Origin: Terriglobales bacterium
GTDB taxonomy: Bacteria; Acidobacteriota; Terriglobia; Terriglobales; Acidobacteriaceae
Length of the DNA: 55,842 nt
Assembly (NCBI GenBank): GCA_015655195.1
Contig: JAATFM010000189.1
Span: 1-55,842 of the forward strand
Direction of reading: 5' to 3'
The notes beneath the pieces are model-generated. The model was not told the origin of the DNA. It saw nothing but the letters and a program-made list of their open reading frames with translations, and made no database searches. Numbering within the stretch: position 1 is the first letter of the stretch; every line of letters starts with the position of its first letter. This document shows, in pieces, positions 21,583-55,828 of the stretch. Both the position numbers and the translations under genes were made by a program.

Positions 21583-21702
21583 CGGCATGGCTGTATCGTT
21601 TCCAGCCAGCCCTGAGGCATCCAGGCGCACGGCGCCTGTTGCCACGTTGTGAGGCACTGCCTCATCTATGTCCGGAAATATGTTCCAGGAGGACGGCATT
21701 TC

Positions 21703-23595
21703 ATGTTCAAACAAATCTTTGCCCTGTTGTCTCTCGCAATAGTGCCCGCGGCTCTTATCGCCGAGGAGCCTTCGCTGACCGTTCATCTAAAAAACCGGCC
21801 AACCGCAAAGGTCAGCCCTACGCTGTACGGCCTGATGACCGAGGAGATCAACTTCTCATACGACGGCGGTCTCTATCCCGAGCTTGTACGCGACCGGACG
21901 ATCGGGCGAGGCTGGCAGGCGCTGGCGCACTGGACGATCGTTCAGCGCGGCAATTCCGCTGTTGAAGTATCTGCCGACGAGCACGCAGGGCCAAGCGCCG
22001 CACTGCCGCGCAGCCTCAAGGTCAAGGTGACCGCAGCCACGGAAGCGGAGCCTGCCGGCGTGCAGAACGACGGTTTCTGGGGCATGGCTGTTCGTCCCCA
22101 CGCAATCTATACAGGCTCGTTCTACGCAAAAGCGGACAGCGCCGATTTGCCCGTCACCGTCGCACTGATGAACGATCAGACAGGCGCGATTGCGGCAAGT
22201 GCCACGGTGAGCGGCGTAGGCGGCGACTGGAAGCGTTACACCTTCACGCTCAAGACAGGCGATATTGCCGCCAGCGCCGACAACCATCTTCAGCTCACGC
22301 TTCCGCGGCCCGCAACGATCTGGTTTGGCCTCGTCTCGCTTTTTCCTCCGACTTACCATGACCGTCCCTTTGGTAATCGCGTTGACCTGATGGAGAAACT
22401 TGCTGCCATGCGTCCGCAGTTCCTGCGGCTGCCCGGCGGCAACTATCTTGAAGGTGACCACATTCCGGAACGGTTCGAATGGAAGAAGACCATCGGGCCG
22501 TGGATCGACCGCCCGACTCACCCGAGCCCCTGGCACTATCGCTCATCGGACGGCATGGGGCTGCTCGAATTTCTGGAGTGGTGCGAAGACTTGAAGATCG
22601 AGCCTGTGCTTGCGGTTTACGCCGGCTACTCGATGGCACAGGAACATGTAGAGCCGGGATCAGCACTGGAGCCTTATATTCAGGATGCACTCGATGAGAT
22701 CGAGTACGTTACCGGGGATGCCAATACCAAATGGGGCGCCGAGCGGGCCAGAAACGGCCACCCTGCGCCTTTTCCGCTGCATTATGTCGAAATTGGGAAT
22801 GAAGATTTTTTTGACCGCTCGGGATCCTACGACGGCCGCTATGCCCAGTACTACCGGGAGATCAAACAGAAGTATCCTGGCCTGCAGTTGATCGCAACAG
22901 CCCCCATCAAGAGCATGAAGCCGGACGTGCTCGACGAGCACTACTATATGTCGGCTGAGCAATCTTTTGCGGATGCCGGGCACTACGACAAGACGGACCG
23001 CAACGGTCCCAGGATATTTGTAGGCGAGTGGGCCACGCGCGAAGGCGAACCGACGCCGAATCTCCAAGCGGCCCTGGGCGATGCTGCTTGGATGACCGGA
23101 ATGGAACGCAACAGCGACATCGTGATCATGGCCAGCTATGCGCCTCTGTTCGTTAATGTGAACCCCGGCGGTATGCAATGGGAGACCGATCTTATCGGCT
23201 ACAACGCATTAACCAGCTATGGGTCGCCCAGCTATTGGGCGCAGGTGATGTTTGCCAATCATCTCGGAACGGAGGTTGTGGCATCTACGCTGGCGAATGC
23301 CGGACCGCGCATCTACACCTCGGTGACGCGCGATGCGCAGCAGCGGCGGCTCTATATCAAGATTGTGAACGCAACGTCGGAGGTAAAGCGCTTCAACATT
23401 GCCTTGGACGGTGCGTCGACGGCGCAGCACGAGGCCAGGCTAATCACTCTGAGCGGCAAATCGCCAAACGCAACTAACTCCATTACACATCCGGACGCGG
23501 TGGCGCCGGTCGAGCACGCTATTCGGGTGTCCGGGGCTGCATTCGAACACAGCTTTGAGCCCTATTCGATTAACGTGATCGATTTGCCTTACTGA
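21703..23595 (+). CDS. GH51-type alpha-L-arabinofuranosidase
   Basis: This is a 630-residue exported protein started at the ATG at 21703, which has AGGAGG 10 bases upstream. The frame open from 21649 has no signal peptide. The signal is MFKQIFALLSLAIVPAALIA. After an early LYGLMTEEINFSYDGGLYPELVRDR block, typical of GH51, a carbohydrate-binding-like jelly-roll (about 80-225) is inserted. A clan GH-A barrel follows with LPGGNYLEGD, the acid/base Glu367 in EIGNEDFF and the nucleophile Glu442 in VGEWATRE. A C-terminal beta-domain ends the protein. It should remove terminal arabinofuranose from arabinan or arabinoxylan fragments in the periplasm and feed the adjacent symporter. Length is that of secreted, not cytoplasmic, GH51 enzymes. 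Confidence 0.93.
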   Translation: MFKQIFALLSLAIVPAALIAEEPSLTVHLKNRPTAKVSPTLYGLMTEEINFSYDGGLYPELVRDRTIGRGWQALAHWTIVQRGNSAVEVSADEHAGPSAALPRSLKVKVTAATEAEPAGVQNDGFWGMAVRPHAIYTGSFYAKADSADLPVTVALMNDQTGAIAASATVSGVGGDWKRYTFTLKTGDIAASADNHLQLTLPRPATIWFGLVSLFPPTYHDRPFGNRVDLMEKLAAMRPQFLRLPGGNYLEGDHIPERFEWKKTIGPWIDRPTHPSPWHYRSSDGMGLLEFLEWCEDLKIEPVLAVYAGYSMAQEHVEPGSALEPYIQDALDEIEYVTGDANTKWGAERARNGHPAPFPLHYVEIGNEDFFDRSGSYDGRYAQYYREIKQKYPGLQLIATAPIKSMKPDVLDEHYYMSAEQSFADAGHYDKTDRNGPRIFVGEWATREGEPTPNLQAALGDAAWMTGMERNSDIVIMASYAPLFVNVNPGGMQWETDLIGYNALTSYGSPSYWAQVMFANHLGTEVVASTLANAGPRIYTSVTRDAQQRRLYIKIVNATSEVKRFNIALDGASTAQHEARLITLSGKSPNATNSITHPDAVAPVEHAIRVSGAAFEHSFEPYSINVIDLPY

Positions 23596-47527: not shown

Positions 47528-50500
47528 ATGAAAACATTGAATCGCGCTGGAGTCGAGTCAGATGTCGTTGCATTTCTCGTTTGCCTCGTGCTAACCGTCC
47601 TGGCTGGCGGTTCAACGCTATGGAGCCAGACCGCGGCCACGTATCCGGGGCAGATCGGCGTTGAAGTTGCCGACCGGCCTACCGGCTTCATTGATGCTTT
47701 CAAGGATCAGGGCAGGCTTTTTCTCGATTCCAGCGGCAATCCGGTTGCCACCGATGCCAATGGAAATCCGCTCTCGGACGGTCTTGCGGTCATTTTTGAC
47801 AATCGCCCGGTGCCTGCGTGGACCGGCATCATCGATGATCCGGACCAATACCAGCCCGATTGCAGCGGCGTTTACACCATCGTTTTTCAGGGACAAGCCA
47901 CACTGTCCAATGTCTCGGGGGCTCCCACGCTCACCTTTGCCAATCAGACCTATAACGCCGCGACCAATACCACCACGGTCAATGTGACAATGCCCGGAGG
48001 CCCGACCTATGCCGACGGGCCGGCGCTGATGGAGATCAGCTTTACTAATACGCAAAGAACAGCGACCAGCGGCACCAACACCGGCATCACGGGTTTGCAG
48101 GCTATCCGGCCCGGCTTCAGCGCGAGTACGACACAGGCATTCGACCCGGCTTTTCTTACATCTCTCTCGCCGTTCGGCTATCTGCGTTTCATGGGATGGT
48201 TGGGAACCAACACCAACCCTGGATATTACGGCGATACCGGCCATCATCTACTGAACTGGTCCACACGCAGCCTTCCCGCTGACTTTTACCAGGGCATCGG
48301 CACCAATACCTCAACCAATTCCAACATCAACCCCGGCGCATGGGGCATTTCGTGGGAGTATGTCATCCTGCTTGCAAACGCCACCAACAAAGACATATGG
48401 ATTAACATTCCCATCAGCGCAACGGGCAGCTCGGACCCGCTCGATCCTACTTACGTCGCTCCCGACTCGAATACGGGCTACGACGACACGAGCTACATCT
48501 ACAATCTGGCTTACCTGCTCAAGAACGGAGACGCATTCACCGGCAACGTCGGGCTGAATCCCGGTCTGCATGTCTATATCGAGCACAGCAATGAGGTCTG
48601 GAATTCCGGCTTTCTGCAGTACACGTGGAACCTGCTGGCCGCGGAGGACGAGGTAAACGCCGGCGGGTCCGTGCTGAACAACGATGGCGACACCAGCCAA
48701 TACGACTGGGCCTATCGCCGCCATATCAAGCGACTCTACGAGATCGGGCAAATCTTCCAGTCGGTCTTCGGGCCTGGCTCGCTGAACACTACCATCCGCC
48801 CTGTCTATGCGTGGTGGCAGCTTGATGAAGGCTCAGGCTCCAACGCGGCGAACGCGCTGGCATGGTTCAAGAATACCTACGGTCCTCCAAGCAACTACTT
48901 CTACGGAATGGCGCAGGGAGACTACTTCAACGCGCCGAATTATGCGAGCGACACGACGATCCCTGAAGTTCTGTCCGACATGCAGGCGTCGAGCAACGCC
49001 AGCGTCTCTTACGTGACAGAGAACCTCGCCACCGCGCAGCAGTACGGTCTGCCGCTATTCGCCTATGAGGGCGGTCCGGCCAGCGATAACGGCGGCACGC
49101 AGGACACCACAAATGTTGGCATTCAGATTCTTGCCAATCGCGATTCCGGAATGAACACGCTGGTGCAGGACCACATAGCCAACAACTGGTTTGCAAAGGG
49201 AGCCAGTCTCTTCGGCTACTTCGGGCTGTCCAGTGCTTACAGCCGGTATGGCGACTGGGGCGCCACCGACGATTACCGCAATCTGACAACAGCAAAATAC
49301 AACGCACTAGTCAATCTGCTGGGTTATACGAATGGTGGTGTTCCTGTTGCTCCCGGCAATCTGGTCGCCAATGGCGGGAATCAGCAAGTGCTTTTGAGCT
49401 GGGAACCGGTGCCAGGCGCGGCCAACTACAAAGTGCTGCGCGGCACTGCTTCCGGCGGCGAGACATTGCTTGCCACTATCTCTTCGTCTACTTATTCGGA
49501 CACGGCCGTAAGCAACGGCGTGACCTACTACTACGAAGTTACGGCGGTGAACTCATCGGGAGCAAGCGGGCCATCGAACGAGGCGAGCGCAACTCCGGAA
49601 TCCACGCCGCCGCCGGCGCCGGTTCTAACGGCCACGGCGAGTAACGGACAGATTACGCTGTCGTGGTCAGCGTCCGCTGGAGCCACTGCATACAACGTTT
49701 ATCAGGGATCGGCCTCGGGAGGAGAAAGCACAACTCCGATTGCAACCGGCGTCACGCTGACCTCTTACACGGTAACTGGCCTGACCAATGGCACAACCTA
49801 TTACTTCGAGGTTGCAGGAGTAAACACCATCGGCACGGGCACATTTTCCAACGAGGCATCCGTGTCTCCCATCGGGCCGCCGCCGGCTCCCACTGGCTTA
49901 ACTGCAACCTCGTGCAGCGGGCAGGCCATACTGTCGTGGGCGGCATCTTCGGGAGCGACCTCGTACAACGTCTACGAAGGCGTGTCTCCGAGCGCGGAAA
50001 GCTCCACACCCGTGGCCACGGGCATTACGGGAACCACTTACACCGTCACCGGCCTGATAAACGGTATGGCGTATTACTTCACGGTTGCGGCGGCCAATAG
50101 CGCCGGCGTCAGCGGTTATTCGAATGAGGCAGGAGCAACGCCTGCGCCTCCAAGTCCGCTTTTGGCCTACGAGCCGTTTGGCGAAGCGAGCGGCAGTGTG
50201 CTCAACGGCGCCAGCGGCAGCGGAGACTCCGGCTGGGCGGCAGCATGGCAGGTTCAGAACGGCTCGAAGAATGTACCCGGCTATAACATCACCTCGACTA
50301 CTCCGCTCACGTATGCAGGGTTGGCGACGAGCGGTAACTACGGCATCGGCGGCGACGTTTATCAGGGTTCGGGCAGAGCTCTCAATGTGAGCGCAGCGGG
50401 TCCGTTCAGCGCTTACCTTTCCAGCGGCCTGATCGACGCGCCGGGGCAGACTATCTGGATTAGCTTCCTGCTGCGCCAGGATGTGAAAAACGCCGCGCCT

Positions 50501-53500
50501 TATGTCGCTTTGACCGCGCAGGGCGGCGGACAAAGCTGGTTGCCGTCTCCCGCGAACATTGAGGTGGGATACTTTGGTTCCGCCTCCAACAACTCCAGCG
50601 GCAATCCTTTGTGGAGCTTGCAGTACAACGGAACCACGCTACAGACCAACGTGCCGGTTGTGACGGGCCAGACCACGCTGTTTGTGATTGCAGATACCTT
50701 TGGATCGAACGGCCAGCCGGATCAGATCAGCCTCTACGTCGATCCCACATCGCTTGGCGGAACGGCCCCGGCCACTCCGACGCTGCAATACTCTCCCGCA
50801 AACACCACGGCCTTCCAGAGCATTGCCTACTACGGCGGCAACACGGCCAATCAGAGCTCGCTCGATGAGATTCGGGTTGGAACGAACTTTGCCGCTGTCA
50901 CGCCATCGGTAGTGGTCGTCATTCCGCCCCCGCCGACGAGCCTCACCGTCACAGCCGGCAGCAAGCTCGCCACGCTATCGTGGTCGCCGGTTTCAGGCGC
51001 AACCTCTTACAATATTTATGAGGGCACGGCTGCCGGCGGGGAAAGCACAACGCCGGTCGCAACCGGGATCACCGGATCCATGTATACGGTGACTGGATTG
51101 ACGAATGGGACCGCATACTACTTCACGGTCGCTGCGGTAAACACCTCTGGCGCGAGCGCAGTCTCTAACGAAGCCTCAGCCACGCCGAGCGCAAGCCTGG
51201 GTGTTCCCGCCGCGCCCACCGGTCTCACCGCGGCCGGCGGCAGCAACCAGGTTTCGCTGAGTTGGACGGCGGTTTCCGGTGCGACTTCATACAACATCTA
51301 CGAAGCCACAGCATCCGGCGCAGAAGGCTCCACGCCAATCGTCACAGGAGTTACAGCGTCTTCTTATACGGCGACGGGCCTGACCAACGGAACCGCCTAT
51401 TTCTTCACCGTGGCCGCAGTCAACAGCTACGGAACCAGCGCCACGTCGAGTGAAGCATCGGCTACACCTGTCACGTCTGTCACAGGCACCAATGCGCCTG
51501 CGGACTTCAGCATCTATCCGCAGATCCTTGCAGCGAACCCAGTCCGGGCGGGCTTCAACATGGAGCCGGCCGCGGGAACGAACATTGGCGAGAACGCGTG
51601 GCTTGCGGATGGCGGCTTCTCGCCATATGACGCGCGCCTGAGCCTGACCGCCAGCCAGAATGGTTCGGACACCACCTTCATTGCAGAGAATGTCGGCAAC
51701 GACGGCGGCTCCGATTTCTGGCAGAGTATCGCCACCGGCTACTTCGTTGGCGCCACTGCGCGCACATACCGCTATGCCGGCGGCGCGTGGACTCTGCTTC
51801 GCACGGACACAGTAAGCGGCTATACCGCCAATGGTGAAGACGAGTCCGCTGCTAATAACACCATTACCTTTTCCGCATCGGGACCCCCGACTCAGGCCGG
51901 CGACATCATTTGGCTCGATCTGGATAACCAGCCTTTCGTGCCTGCGCTCACGTACCTTGACCCGCGCTTTACCACATACTGCCCGAACTGGTCCACAGAG
52001 CAACTGGGCTGCGACACGCGAACCGCAACCGTGCCATACGTCTTGTCCACGGATGTTCCCGCCTCGGACGCAGGTGGCCTCAGCCTGGAATTGACGGACA
52101 ACAACACCGAGACGAACGGAATCTGGCAGTATATCCAGGGCGCGTTTGTCGGTCCGAATGACGAGGAATTCCAGACCGGCCACACCTATAAGGCCGATGT
52201 CTGGCTAAAACAATCCGGCGTCGCAAACGGCAACGTTACCTTCAGCATCAGCGGCCTGAATGTTTCGCACACCTTTAGCGGAGTCACCAGCGCATGGCAG
52301 GAGTTCACATGGACGTTTCCCGCCCCGCCCGGGCTGCAGCCAAACTCGGTTCAACCCAGTGTGCACCTGGATTTCAGCGCGCCGGGCATACTATGGGTGG
52401 ATAACTTCCAGCTTTACGATGCCGCATGGGCGCCAAACACGGTCAGTCCACAGGTCATGTCCGCATGGCAGGACTATCAGCCCGGCCAGGTCCGCATCTG
52501 GAGCAACTTCGGAGTGTCGAGCCAAGGCTACGGCTTCTTCAGCCTCGATAGCTGGCTGACGGCGGAGATCAAGACGCGCAATACGCCCGGCCTCGGCAAC
52601 CAATACGAGTCGGCCGGACAGCTCGAACATCTTCCCGATGCGCTTGCCAACGTGAAAACGCTGGGCGCAAATCCGTGGCTGATCGTCAACATGGCCCTGT
52701 CGGAAGTCGAATGGGGCGAGCTGATCGAGTACCTTGCTGCGCCGGAAGGCGTCGGTTATGCCGCCAGGCGTCCTGCCGACCATCCAGGTCCCTACACTGC
52801 GGACTTCAACACGATCTATCTTGAGGTTGGCAACGAAGAGTGGGGCACGCAGGTGGTGCCCGCCGATACGGCTTATGGCCAATGGGCCAACTTTGTCACC
52901 AGCCATGCTACCGCGGGCAAGAGCTACTTCAATTCGAGCCAGATCAAGTTCATCGTGAATGGATTCTTTCAACAGCCGTCCTTCGGTTCTGCCGCGCAGG
53001 CCGCGGCACCACAGGCTTCCTTCGTCGATTACGCCCTCTACAGCGGTGGTAACAGCTCGCTGAGCGGAGATGCCTATTACCAGTCCGATCTTCTGCAACT
53101 GCCGGAGACAAACAAGCCGCTGATCGACGCCATCGTCGCGCAGCAACAGTTGGATTCTGCTGCGGGCAGGGTCTACGGTTTGGCGGCGTATGAGGAGGGT
53201 CCGGGATCGACCACGGGAGATCCCTCTCTGGCCGCTGCTGTCGGAGCCATCGACGTGAACCTCTACGCGTCGCAGAGCGGCTTCGGCCCACAGAACTACT
53301 TCGACTACGGCGTGAGCCAGGGCGGACCATGGAGCTCGCACACCAACTTCGCCAACGGCTACCGTGCTCAGCCGGTCTGGGAAGCCTACCAGATGCGCAA
53401 CAACTACTGCACCGGCCCAATGGTGCTGGCCACCGCCAACAGCGTTCCTACCAGCACCGATGGAACCGCTTCGCCGCTGGTTACCGTCTATGCCTTCCAG

Positions 53501-55828
53501 GACGCCAACGTGCCCAACCAGGCCGATGTGGTTGTCATCTCGCGCGACCTGAATAATGAGACACCGGTAACGCTTCATTTCCCGGCCACGCCTACGGGCA
53601 CAGCAAACCTCTACACGCTCACCGGAGATCCGCGCGCCAGCAACACCAGCGCGATGGACATTCCCATCGGCAACTCGACGGTGACTGTAACACCGAACTA
53701 CACCTTCAACATGCCTCCGGGATCGATGTATATCTTCCAGGTTCCGATGAGCGGAGCGTGGTCCGCGACCGGCATCCCGACTCCGCCGCCGCCGGCCACC
53801 CTCTCCGCGAATGCCGGCAACAGTCAAGTAACCCTGACCTGGGCCATCTCCACGGGCGCAACCAGCTATAACGTTCTGCGCGGAGCAACCAGTGGAGGAC
53901 CGTATACGCAGATCGCTTCCACTCCGGAGATCACTTACACGGATACCGCCGTCACTAACGGCACCACGTATTACTACGTCGTGCAGGCGGCAAACGCAGG
54001 CGGAGCCAGCGCCAACTCGGAGGAAGTCAGCGCCACTCCCAACTTTGAGGACGCCGGCTATGCCTCCGCGCAACCACCGCTTGACGGCACAGCCGGAGGA
54101 AGTTGGGCGAGCACTCCCTTCATTCCACTCACACACTACTTCTCCGGAACCTCCACCGATACGGCTTCGTACAAGACGCTATGGGACAGCAACTATCTCT
54201 ATGTCCTGGTCTCCGTGCAGGACAGCACACTCGTCCCTCCCACCCAGGCCAACGTCTTTAACGGAGACACGGTTGAGCTGTACTTCTCCGGAACCGACAC
54301 CCGAAGCACCTCCTACGGTCCCACAGACTTTCAGTACGCCTTCCCGCTTGCCGGAAACGGAGCTGTTGTCACCGAAGAAGATCACAACGCCGTTACCGGC
54401 GTGATTCTGGGGCAGCAGACCTTCGCGAGCGGCATCACCGATCCAGTGACCTCGATCGCGTATCCCAACGGCGGCTATCAGATGACAATCGCCTTGCCGT
54501 GGACTGCCGGCGCGCTGAATACCGCGCCCGTAGCCGGCCAGCAGTATGGCTTCGATGTAATGATCGACGACTCCGTCAGCCAGGGCGACCGCATTGGCAA
54601 ACTGGGGTGGTGGGCCACGCAAGACAGCACGTGGGGCAATCCATCGCTCATGGGAGCGCTGGTGCTTGCCGCGCAGCAGGTCGCAGCGCCTTCCAATATA
54701 GCGATGACTGCGGCATCCACTGCGCCTCCGGCAGGCTCTGCCGATCTGCTCACTGCTACCGTTACCGGAAGCAATGGCACGCCCACCGGCAACGTTGTCT
54801 TCACCGCCGGCGGAGCGACACTATGCACCTCCGCACTGAACGGCAGCGGCAGCGCAAACTGCAACTACACGCCAACCGGCTCCGGGCCTGTAACGATCAC
54901 TGCGCAGTACCAGGGAAGCTCCACGTATCAAACCAGCTCATCCACTCTCGCGCTGAATGTCTACGACCCGGCCGTCAGTCTGCAACTCGCAAGCACGCAG
55001 CTTGTCTATTCGGGCGCGACCAACGTAACGGCCTGCATCACACCGGCAGGCAGCGCTACGGCCACCGGCACGGTGAAGATATTCGATGGCGCTACGCTCC
55101 TCACCACGCAAAGCCTACAAGGCGGCGGCTGCGCCTACTGGTACATCTCACCCGGCCTAACTGCAGGCGCGCATCCGCTCACTGCCACCTACTCCGGTGA
55201 CAGCAATAATCCCGCCGGAACCTCAGCCGTAACCACGGCGACAGTGTCTCCGGTCCCGGTCGATCTGAGCGTCTCCTGCTGGAATGCTTCGTTCGACTAC
55301 GGGGCAAATTACCAGTGCACGGTAAATGCCAGCTCCAATGCCGGCTCCGCGCAAGGGAACATCACCTATGCACTCGACGGTGGCTCAGCGGTTAGCGTAC
55401 CGCTCAACGGAGGCAGCGCACAATTCACCATCTCCAAGCCGGTTGCGGGAACGCATCAGGTAGTGATCTCCTACCCGCAGCAGACTAATTATGCCGTCGC
55501 AGGACCGCAGGCGGAATCCTTCAGTGTCTCGCCCGCCCCGGTCAATGTGGCCTTGACGCCATCCACCTACTACACTGCGACGGGATCGACGATCACCTTT
55601 GCCACGGCAATAACATCGTGGAGCGCCGGCGCACCAAACGCAACAGGCTCCGTTTCGTTCTACGATGGTTCCACATTGCTTGCCACCGTGCCAGTCAGCA
55701 GCAGCGGTCAAGCCAGCTACTCAACGGCTGGCCTGGCCGCGGGCACACAAACGATCACCGCAACGTATGCCGGCGGGGCCAATTATGCGAACGGATCGAG
55801 TTCCGCCACCATCACACTGCACCAATGA
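47528..55828 (+). CDS. Giant secreted multi-modular protein with two clan-GH-A-like catalytic domains
   Basis: This is a 2,766-residue protein with a GGGAG site, complete to its TGA. A hydrophobic leader (VVAFLVCLVLTVLAGGSTLW) ends near residue 40. Module 1 (about 45-600) has an acid/base-like Glu356 in YIEHSNEVWN and a nucleophile-like Glu514 in FAYEGGP. Three fibronectin III repeats follow (about 606-874), each with the LSWxxxxGAxxYxVxxG core, then a jelly-roll module (877-1127) and two more fibronectin repeats (1133-1314). Module 2 (about 1322-2077) has Glu1770 in LEVGNEEWG and Glu1889 in AAYEEGPGS. A sixth fibronectin repeat (2086-2171), a CBM9-like domain (2173-2385; KTLWDSNYLYVLVSVQD) and about four Ig-like Big repeats (2388-2766) finish it. 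No cell-wall, PEP-CTERM or dockerin tail is seen. Neither catalytic module can be assigned to a numbered family by eye. Confidence 0.88.
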   Translation: MKTLNRAGVESDVVAFLVCLVLTVLAGGSTLWSQTAATYPGQIGVEVADRPTGFIDAFKDQGRLFLDSSGNPVATDANGNPLSDGLAVIFDNRPVPAWTGIIDDPDQYQPDCSGVYTIVFQGQATLSNVSGAPTLTFANQTYNAATNTTTVNVTMPGGPTYADGPALMEISFTNTQRTATSGTNTGITGLQAIRPGFSASTTQAFDPAFLTSLSPFGYLRFMGWLGTNTNPGYYGDTGHHLLNWSTRSLPADFYQGIGTNTSTNSNINPGAWGISWEYVILLANATNKDIWINIPISATGSSDPLDPTYVAPDSNTGYDDTSYIYNLAYLLKNGDAFTGNVGLNPGLHVYIEHSNEVWNSGFLQYTWNLLAAEDEVNAGGSVLNNDGDTSQYDWAYRRHIKRLYEIGQIFQSVFGPGSLNTTIRPVYAWWQLDEGSGSNAANALAWFKNTYGPPSNYFYGMAQGDYFNAPNYASDTTIPEVLSDMQASSNASVSYVTENLATAQQYGLPLFAYEGGPASDNGGTQDTTNVGIQILANRDSGMNTLVQDHIANNWFAKGASLFGYFGLSSAYSRYGDWGATDDYRNLTTAKYNALVNLLGYTNGGVPVAPGNLVANGGNQQVLLSWEPVPGAANYKVLRGTASGGETLLATISSSTYSDTAVSNGVTYYYEVTAVNSSGASGPSNEASATPESTPPPAPVLTATASNGQITLSWSASAGATAYNVYQGSASGGESTTPIATGVTLTSYTVTGLTNGTTYYFEVAGVNTIGTGTFSNEASVSPIGPPPAPTGLTATSCSGQAILSWAASSGATSYNVYEGVSPSAESSTPVATGITGTTYTVTGLINGMAYYFTVAAANSAGVSGYSNEAGATPAPPSPLLAYEPFGEASGSVLNGASGSGDSGWAAAWQVQNGSKNVPGYNITSTTPLTYAGLATSGNYGIGGDVYQGSGRALNVSAAGPFSAYLSSGLIDAPGQTIWISFLLRQDVKNAAPYVALTAQGGGQSWLPSPANIEVGYFGSASNNSSGNPLWSLQYNGTTLQTNVPVVTGQTTLFVIADTFGSNGQPDQISLYVDPTSLGGTAPATPTLQYSPANTTAFQSIAYYGGNTANQSSLDEIRVGTNFAAVTPSVVVVIPPPPTSLTVTAGSKLATLSWSPVSGATSYNIYEGTAAGGESTTPVATGITGSMYTVTGLTNGTAYYFTVAAVNTSGASAVSNEASATPSASLGVPAAPTGLTAAGGSNQVSLSWTAVSGATSYNIYEATASGAEGSTPIVTGVTASSYTATGLTNGTAYFFTVAAVNSYGTSATSSEASATPVTSVTGTNAPADFSIYPQILAANPVRAGFNMEPAAGTNIGENAWLADGGFSPYDARLSLTASQNGSDTTFIAENVGNDGGSDFWQSIATGYFVGATARTYRYAGGAWTLLRTDTVSGYTANGEDESAANNTITFSASGPPTQAGDIIWLDLDNQPFVPALTYLDPRFTTYCPNWSTEQLGCDTRTATVPYVLSTDVPASDAGGLSLELTDNNTETNGIWQYIQGAFVGPNDEEFQTGHTYKADVWLKQSGVANGNVTFSISGLNVSHTFSGVTSAWQEFTWTFPAPPGLQPNSVQPSVHLDFSAPGILWVDNFQLYDAAWAPNTVSPQVMSAWQDYQPGQVRIWSNFGVSSQGYGFFSLDSWLTAEIKTRNTPGLGNQYESAGQLEHLPDALANVKTLGANPWLIVNMALSEVEWGELIEYLAAPEGVGYAARRPADHPGPYTADFNTIYLEVGNEEWGTQVVPADTAYGQWANFVTSHATAGKSYFNSSQIKFIVNGFFQQPSFGSAAQAAAPQASFVDYALYSGGNSSLSGDAYYQSDLLQLPETNKPLIDAIVAQQQLDSAAGRVYGLAAYEEGPGSTTGDPSLAAAVGAIDVNLYASQSGFGPQNYFDYGVSQGGPWSSHTNFANGYRAQPVWEAYQMRNNYCTGPMVLATANSVPTSTDGTASPLVTVYAFQDANVPNQADVVVISRDLNNETPVTLHFPATPTGTANLYTLTGDPRASNTSAMDIPIGNSTVTVTPNYTFNMPPGSMYIFQVPMSGAWSATGIPTPPPPATLSANAGNSQVTLTWAISTGATSYNVLRGATSGGPYTQIASTPEITYTDTAVTNGTTYYYVVQAANAGGASANSEEVSATPNFEDAGYASAQPPLDGTAGGSWASTPFIPLTHYFSGTSTDTASYKTLWDSNYLYVLVSVQDSTLVPPTQANVFNGDTVELYFSGTDTRSTSYGPTDFQYAFPLAGNGAVVTEEDHNAVTGVILGQQTFASGITDPVTSIAYPNGGYQMTIALPWTAGALNTAPVAGQQYGFDVMIDDSVSQGDRIGKLGWWATQDSTWGNPSLMGALVLAAQQVAAPSNIAMTAASTAPPAGSADLLTATVTGSNGTPTGNVVFTAGGATLCTSALNGSGSANCNYTPTGSGPVTITAQYQGSSTYQTSSSTLALNVYDPAVSLQLASTQLVYSGATNVTACITPAGSATATGTVKIFDGATLLTTQSLQGGGCAYWYISPGLTAGAHPLTATYSGDSNNPAGTSAVTTATVSPVPVDLSVSCWNASFDYGANYQCTVNASSNAGSAQGNITYALDGGSAVSVPLNGGSAQFTISKPVAGTHQVVISYPQQTNYAVAGPQAESFSVSPAPVNVALTPSTYYTATGSTITFATAITSWSAGAPNATGSVSFYDGSTLLATVPVSSSGQASYSTAGLAAGTQTITATYAGGANYANGSSSATITLHQ

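Follow-up and report, generated by a model that had tools for sequence, protein, structure and literature searches.

Retaining glycoside hydrolases of clan GH-A carry a pair of glutamates, one acting as acid/base and the other as nucleophile, and work by double displacement. Among the described systems closest to the locus analysed here are the GH51 arabinofuranosidases (PDB 3ug3, 6d25 and 6zps), some of which have a CBM4/9-type insert. A true GH51 gene is also present in the window, by which we mean the whole 55.8-kb stretch of DNA that was analysed. It is located at 21649-23595 on the + strand, was recognised by Pfam with ASD1_dom and Alpha-L-AF_C as well as CBM_4_9 below the cut-off, and was used as a reference. 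Other described systems are the heparanases and beta-glucuronidases (5bwi, 7psh), which we take to be GH79 enzymes, and PslG, which belongs to GH39. PslG is described as a retaining endo-beta-glucosidase whose gene lies in the exopolysaccharide cluster Psl (PMC11912335).

In comparison to these systems, the gene at 47528-55828 probably encodes a secreted fusion of two retaining glycoside hydrolases from the GH51/GH79 side of clan GH-A, combined with binding and spacer domains. Module 2 (M2) resembles GH51 in layout, with jelly roll, barrel and C-terminal sandwich following one another as in GH51 and both Glu aligned, but the curated GH51 profiles fail on it and it forms a high-scoring family of its own. 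Module 1 (M1) has GH51 as its nearest solved fold, but no significant sequence match to it, and its model has no C-terminal sandwich. With the heparanases and beta-glucuronidases M1 shares the clan GH-A fold (Z 21.6-22.5), whereas the identity is 8-10% and no sequence match was found. The M2 family can be likened to PslG, a retaining hydrolase whose gene is part of a cluster for polysaccharide biosynthesis, a setting that 28 of 43 M2 loci suggest as well. Unlike PslG, neither module has a GH39 profile match (window copies), and the window copy, with no exopolysaccharide marker around it, was not seen in such a biosynthesis cluster. The clan GH-A fold is known; what may be new is M1 as a candidate family, M2 being a branch beside GH51.

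Domain layout of the protein

The gene is a complete open reading frame of 2766 codons (47528-55828, + strand, as for all features below) for a multimodular secreted protein of 2766 aa in which both modules are conserved, and its stop is 14 bases short of the contig end. The translation starts with a hydrophobic segment (aa 1-34, 47528-47629) that was judged by eye to be a likely Sec signal peptide. It is followed by M1 (aa 35-603, 47630-49336), a predicted clan GH-A barrel based on a 77-row alignment and an AlphaFold2 model, and by three fn3 repeats starting at aa 605, 694 and 784 (49340-50150). A jelly-roll-like region between fn3 repeats (aa 878-1130, 50159-50917) had no sequence match in Pfam or PDB. 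Two further fn3 repeats, starting at aa 1133 and 1226 (50924-51466), precede M2 (aa 1322-2077, 51491-53758), a GH51-related domain according to the profile-to-PDB search and hhalign, and a sixth starts at aa 2086 (53783-54043); all fn3 repeats were placed by Pfam and peptide-string position, and their ends are approximate. The C-terminal part consists of a CBM9_1 domain (aa 2185-2381, 54080-54670, Pfam E 1.6e-32) and four Ig-like Big_3_5 repeats starting at aa 2384, 2479, 2573 and 2667 (54677-55825, Pfam E 2.1e-40).

Over the full length of the protein Pfam detected six stretches of fn3, four of Big_3_5 and one of CBM9_1, which confirmed the fibronectin repeats, CBM9-like domain and Ig-like repeats listed in a first-pass annotation of this DNA. 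No glycosidase family was found by Pfam in the window copy of M1 or M2 at E ≤ 10. The same annotation had proposed two clan-GH-A-like modules in a single secreted chain, each with an NE motif and a later YE motif, and our results support this. SNEVW, AYEGGP, GNEEWG and AYEEGP were indeed found at Glu356, Glu514, Glu1770 and Glu1889, and the invariance of the Glu pairs (M1 77/77 rows, M2 53/53 rows) argues against motifs that occur by chance.

Family and predicted fold of module 1

A profile made from four sequences was used to search for M1 in one genome per species, and relatives were found in at least 528 genome stretches, from at least 592 that matched the pattern. The alignment A4 contains 76 of the best 80 among these relatives and the window copy (77 rows); L049, L062, L064 and L080 were omitted for their cut or odd ranges. 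Its rows span 18 named phyla, with three loci carrying no phylum label. Glu356 (48593-48595), the predicted acid/base, and Glu514 (49067-49069), the predicted nucleophile, were kept in all 77 rows, and so were Arg220, Trp244, Glu277, Glu352, Ser354, Asn355, Trp358, Asn359, Tyr466 and Tyr513. Among the aligned rows, the closest to the window M1 were a Terriglobus albidus sequence (63%) and one of a Fimbriimonadaceae bacterium (50%). With the window M1 as query, relatives were detected in 4 of 199 genomes drawn from the host phylum, its own genome counted, and M1 was found in 8 of 300 genomes of the host's taxonomic family.

None of the 77 rows matched a Pfam family at E ≤ 0.01. The window copy gave a single chance-level row in NCBIfam (T9SS DNase, E 0.056), and a Tox-MPTase5 row (E 0.11) in a Pfam scan at E ≤ 10 was likewise rejected as chance-level. 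Single M1 and M2 sequences had no phmmer match in the PDB up to E 10, and the A4 profile retrieved no glycosidase from the PDB. Two scaffoldin chains matched the N-terminal part of M1 in the PDB at E 0.015-0.019, and were taken as chance because E rose to 0.63-0.86 with a deeper profile. The sequence relation of M1 to GH51 was weak as well (hhalign probability 13 with E 0.002, and 0.1 when the window GH51 was the only counterpart). In the plasmid records examined, M1 relatives were mostly 'hypothetical', 'calcium-binding' or unannotated, with some records naming them 'calcium-binding protein'. Neither the M1 nor the M2 family was named in the titles and abstract beginnings found in open PMC text.

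Two M1 loci had a different arrangement. In a Planctomycetota protein, two tandem M1 modules are located in a single 1232-aa frame (L064:2532-6227). On a Paracoccus marcusii plasmid, an M1-like stretch lies inside a CDS annotated as a family 16 glycosylhydrolase, beside polysaccharide genes (L094:5030-11938); this CDS is possibly another two-hydrolase fusion, its GH16 part being taken solely from the annotation.

The AlphaFold2 model of M1 was confident (mean pLDDT 89.1, pTM 0.92) and showed a barrel without a C-terminal sandwich, in which a beta-rich insert follows the first strand (aa 85-193, 47780-48106, between barrel strands 1 and 2). With strand numbers that we assigned from the secondary structure of the model, Glu356 (model residue 322) came directly after strand 4 (model residues 315-319), and Glu514 (model residue 480) lay within strand 7 (model residues 476-483). 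The model therefore has the features of clan GH-A, namely a (beta/alpha)8 barrel, an Asn-Glu acid/base at strand 4 and a nucleophile at strand 7. The expectation that each Glu pair lies in one pocket was supported for M1 by these strand positions, whereas for M2 it was drawn from GH51 homology and a weak model.

Foldseek with the M1 model gave GH51 as top match (6d25, E 2.2e-7, TM 0.41-0.46), although its GH51 alignments were loose, with TM of about 0.4-0.5 and rmsd over 6. With VIA the best match was also a GH51 structure (2y2w, Z 23.9, rmsd 3.1, 306 aligned), followed by a bacterial heparanase (5bwi, Z 22.5, rmsd 3.0, 283 aligned), with which several GH51 rows tie. Lower values were obtained for GH39 (1px8, Z 19.8, rmsd 3.9, 283 aligned), GH44 (2yjq, Z 18.9, rmsd 3.7, 298 aligned) and GH164 (Z 18.4). 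As predicted by the model, M1 is a member of clan GH-A on its GH51/GH79 side. Judged against Pfam, NCBIfam and PDB, it is a strong candidate for founding a new family within this known clan. A new CAZy family calls for a biochemically characterised founding member.

Relation of module 2 to GH51

M2 consists of a CBM4/9-like jelly roll (about aa 1488-1631, 51989-52420), a barrel (about aa 1632-1938, 52421-53341; hhalign to GH51 and a weak model) and a predicted C-terminal beta-sandwich that is collinear with the C-terminal domain of GH51 (53384-53758; second stretch of hmmsearch and hhalign, with low model pLDDT). In the PDB, a profile of five M2 relatives (A2) retrieved GH51 arabinofuranosidases (E 7e-16), the C-terminal sandwich giving a second matching stretch, as well as CBM4-type domains (1gui, E 1.4e-4). 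When 53 M2 rows were compared with 26 GH51-type proteins by hhalign, the probability was 100 (E 1e-42, 544 columns). The alignment spans jelly roll, barrel and sandwich, and places GNEEW and AYE on the acid/base and the nucleophile of GH51. The corresponding residues, the predicted acid/base Glu1770 (52835-52837) and nucleophile Glu1889 (53192-53194), were invariant in 53/53 rows together with Arg1656, Trp1772 and Tyr1888, whereas the Asn ahead of the acid/base was kept in 52/53 and Glu1766 in 43/53. The clan GH-A features of M2 are thus given by GH51 homology and invariant residues, its own model being weak.

The CBM-like block suggested for M2 by the first-pass annotation proved to be a CBM4/9-type jelly roll, supported by CBM_4_9 in relatives, PDB 1gui and hhalign. 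In the window copy CBM_4_9 was short of the Pfam cut-off (E 0.017), and at E ≤ 1 it was found in four of the five A2 members (best 9.3e-5). The GH51 profiles ASD1_dom and Alpha-L-AF_C (PF22848, PF06964) had no match in the window M2 at E ≤ 10 and in none of the five A2 members at E ≤ 1, and no glycosidase was matched by the window M2 in Pfam or NCBIfam at E ≤ 10. A Pfam row for GspH (E 3.3) was at chance level and was discarded. By BLASTP, M2 matched the window GH51 at no better than E 0.004 over 96 residues.

M2 was detected at E ≤ 1e-50 in 38 of the 300 genomes of the host's family, as counted by hand, with at most three candidates scored per genome and some matches ending at contig ends. 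Long M2 matches scored at least 192 bits and one M2 fragment 86, in comparison to at most 80 bits for GH51-type proteins, and because of this difference we consider M2 a separate branch beside GH51. Judged from these alignments it is a deep branch and not an orphan. The earlier statement that neither module could be linked to a numbered family thus stood for M1 in the libraries searched, but not for M2, which has a strong profile link to GH51 and the same architecture. Viral contigs yielded no relative of either M2 or the window GH51.

For M2 the model was weak (pLDDT 57.7, pTM 0.62); the alignment behind it consisted of M1-family rows. The best VIA rows of this model were GH51 (Z 15.6, rmsd 3.5, 274 aligned); a GH5 scored 14.7, and the jelly roll matched CBM4 (Z 9.6, rmsd 3.5, 120 aligned). 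Foldseek with this model gave no match at E ≤ 0.001.

Relation of the two modules and their fusion

The first-pass annotation had regarded the modules as too different for a simple duplication, and they were found to be remote homologues by profile. The hhalign probability between M1 and M2 was 98.5 in one run, in which both catalytic Glu pair up, and 99.1 (E 6e-19) in another. In all four settings of unguided MAFFT the Glu pair of M2 fell on that of M1, and the strand-2 Arg was displaced by two columns. A joint alignment of 78 rows had eight columns common to all, including Glu1766, Asn1769, Glu1770, Trp1772, Tyr1888 and Glu1889. Tyr1850 of M2 is also present in all joint rows but in only 2/53 of the M2 family, and this column was rejected as accidental. 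By these profile comparisons M1 and M2 are old relatives and not recent duplicates. The beta insert of M1 sits where M2 and GH51 have the jelly roll, which may be a further sign of common descent.

The fusion of M1 and M2 was found once. The other seven M1 frames in the 300 family genomes were all shorter than 1100 residues, and tblastn of 80 M1 loci with flanks of up to 5 kb detected no M2 and no second fusion; a single weak M2 cross-match (L059) falls on the M1 stretch itself. M1 and M2 occurred in the same genome in 4 of 8 M1 genomes as compared to 34 of 292 others (p 0.01, uncorrected for kinship).

Genomic setting

The 14 window proteins scanned with Pfam included the GH51, two GH43, a GH3, a rhamnosidase-like protein and a GH31, in addition to an MGH1-like glycosidase, a GDSL esterase, two putative esterases and two large outer-membrane barrels, which we assume to be TonB/SusC-like. 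This gene set looks like one for the breakdown of a branched plant glycan. No exopolysaccharide marker (Wzy, Wza, WecG, flippase) was found in the window, which on the downstream side is bounded by the contig end.

The wider M2 family had a different setting. Wzy, Wza, WecG or flippase markers were detected at 28 of 43 M2 loci, for which 6.8-20 kb were fetched, in comparison to 1 of 20 GH51 control loci (Fisher p 6e-6, with loci taken as independent and with L145 and L177, both among the 43, overlapping). The markers were drawn from M2 loci L143, L138 and L137, which were also counted, from M1 locus L149 and from a Thioclava locus, and because they were taken from such loci the set leans towards an exopolysaccharide setting. 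The GH51 controls came from lower-scoring rows of the 300-genome scan and were typed by alignment to the Pfam-confirmed window GH51; by this alignment, and not by Pfam one by one, the catalytic Glu was present in 26/26 of the GH51-type set.

Representative genes common to M2 loci were identified by Pfam, and marker-free Pfam tallies agreed with the marker test. They covered the 25 commonest families at a random 24 of the 43 M2 loci and at 20 control loci, with ORF calls that include shadow frames. Among 139 genes near the M2 loci the counts were Glycos_transf_1 12, Glycos_transf_2 11, Wzy_C 9 and WecG 5. Among 138 genes near the GH51 loci no glycosyltransferase family was found within the 25 commonest (of 138 families), and the sugar-nucleotide families Epimerase and GDP_Man_Dehyd were present three and two times, respectively.

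Several other observations were made at these loci. M2-family genes recur in acidobacterial exopolysaccharide-type clusters (L137-L146, L150-L182); L138 and L139 each contain three of them within 20 kb. A gene like 4'-phosphopantetheinyl transferase recurs beside M2 (L143:5882-6682, with relatives in L137, L138, L139 and L144), and ACPS accounted for 5 of the 139 neighbour genes in the Pfam tally. A family of large proteins is common to L143:2-3178, L137:9589-11949, L144 and the M1 locus L149; its 1058-aa member at L143:2-3178 had no Pfam match at E ≤ 1e-5.

On plasmid p3 of Thioclava sp. GXIMD4216 (L091:10793-16749), an M1-like 'calcium-binding protein' gene adjoins an M2-like 'hypothetical protein' gene. 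The pair is flanked by a phosphomannomutase, on the sugar-nucleotide side, and an oligosaccharide flippase, and Thioclava was the sole genus in which separate adjacent M1 and M2 genes were seen. In the tree the Thioclava M2 is next to the window M2, but by a long-branch join, and its placement is unsure. The nearest relative of the window M2 comes from the same genus (49-50%); the two make up a divergent pair, and markers are absent from both loci.

For M1 in general, a link to exopolysaccharide clusters was rejected as weak. Markers were present at 9 of 83 M1 loci and absent from 74, with flanks of at most 5 kb per side for 80 of the 83 and with L147 and L148 seemingly from the same genomes as L029 and L011. 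Among 142 immediate M1 neighbours no Pfam family had more than three members (WecG 3, Wzy_C 3). A first marker search with plasmid-derived queries had given eight M1 loci, two of them solely by a sugar epimerase and one solely by an acyltransferase.

Proposed working and alternative explanations

In the proposed working, catalysis in each barrel would run by double displacement with retention, the Glu that follows strand 4 serving as acid/base and the one at strand 7 as nucleophile. Both modules would remove or cut glycosyl units of one complex branched polysaccharide, on which the CBM9, the CBM4/9-like insert and the fn3 and Ig-like domains would hold the enzyme. M2 would be a GH51-like but divergent enzyme that keeps the GH51 layout, with a site that should resemble that of GH51, and as a first guess it would remove side units such as arabinofuranose. 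M1 would belong to a separate, unrecognised family with a beta insert after strand 1 and no C-terminal sandwich, for which we make no guess of specificity beyond clan GH-A. We know of no activity for any member of either family. The most likely substrate, as a guess, is an arabinose-bearing plant glycan, because GH51, GH43, GH3, rhamnosidase-like and outer-membrane-barrel genes neighbour the fusion.

The substrate is also where the strongest competing explanation departs. The fusion could process exopolysaccharide in a PslG-like role and attack the matrix of the bacterium itself or of its neighbours instead of plant walls, an explanation that we consider possible but on balance doubtful, and that overlaps in its odds with the best one since the two differ solely in substrate. 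The excess of markers at M2 loci over GH51 controls, the glycosyltransferases, Wzy_C and WecG found near M2, the absence of glycosyltransferases from the commonest families near GH51, the adjacent Thioclava genes with their tree position next to the window M2, and the markers at some M1 loci all point this way. However, the window with its catabolic-type CAZyme cluster has no marker in 55.8 kb, the window M2 and its nearest relative are divergent and both marker-free, and most M1 loci have no marker, even if the flanks were short. Moreover, the Thioclava link is a long-branch join, and Epimerase and GDP_Man_Dehyd occur near the GH51 controls too. The multi-enzyme for complex cell-wall glycan that the first-pass annotation envisaged is thus favored by the window neighbourhood and opposed by the wider M2 family and the Thioclava pair. 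Families linked to exopolysaccharide may have given rise to the fused gene as a catabolic offshoot; alternatively, its sub-branch may always have been catabolic.

That M2 is a plain GH51 alpha-L-arabinofuranosidase overlooked by the profile libraries would fit the hhalign probability of 100 over most of its length, the shared architecture and the aligned Glu. We regard this as unlikely, given that neither ASD1_dom nor Alpha-L-AF_C matches at E ≤ 10, that the bit scores of the two groups are separated in the 300 genomes and that their genomic settings differ. A descent from hydrolases with loss of activity, leaving one module or both as binding or scaffold domains, is very improbable. The 'calcium-binding protein' labels in plasmid records and the lack of a member with known activity would agree with such a role, but 77/77 and 53/53 rows retain the strand-2 Arg as well as both catalytic Glu, even at about 25% identity to the window copy, and decayed enzymes usually lose such residues.

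Implications

The natural fusion suggests that M1 and M2 share one polymer, and offers a single construct for finding it. M1 is a widespread unannotated family on a known enzyme fold, and hundreds of its genes probably encode glycosidases. With the M2 family, acidobacterial exopolysaccharide clusters gain a processing enzyme of the GH51 line that can be tested. In a bolder version, which we think rather unlikely as a whole, M1 founds a new GH family present in at least 18 bacterial phyla, and M1 and the GH51-sister M2 are matrix-polysaccharide hydrolases that some bacteria carry as neighbouring genes in exopolysaccharide clusters and that were fused here and moved to a catabolic cluster. If this is true, the bacterium could feed on the exopolysaccharide of other microbes by means of a fused free enzyme.
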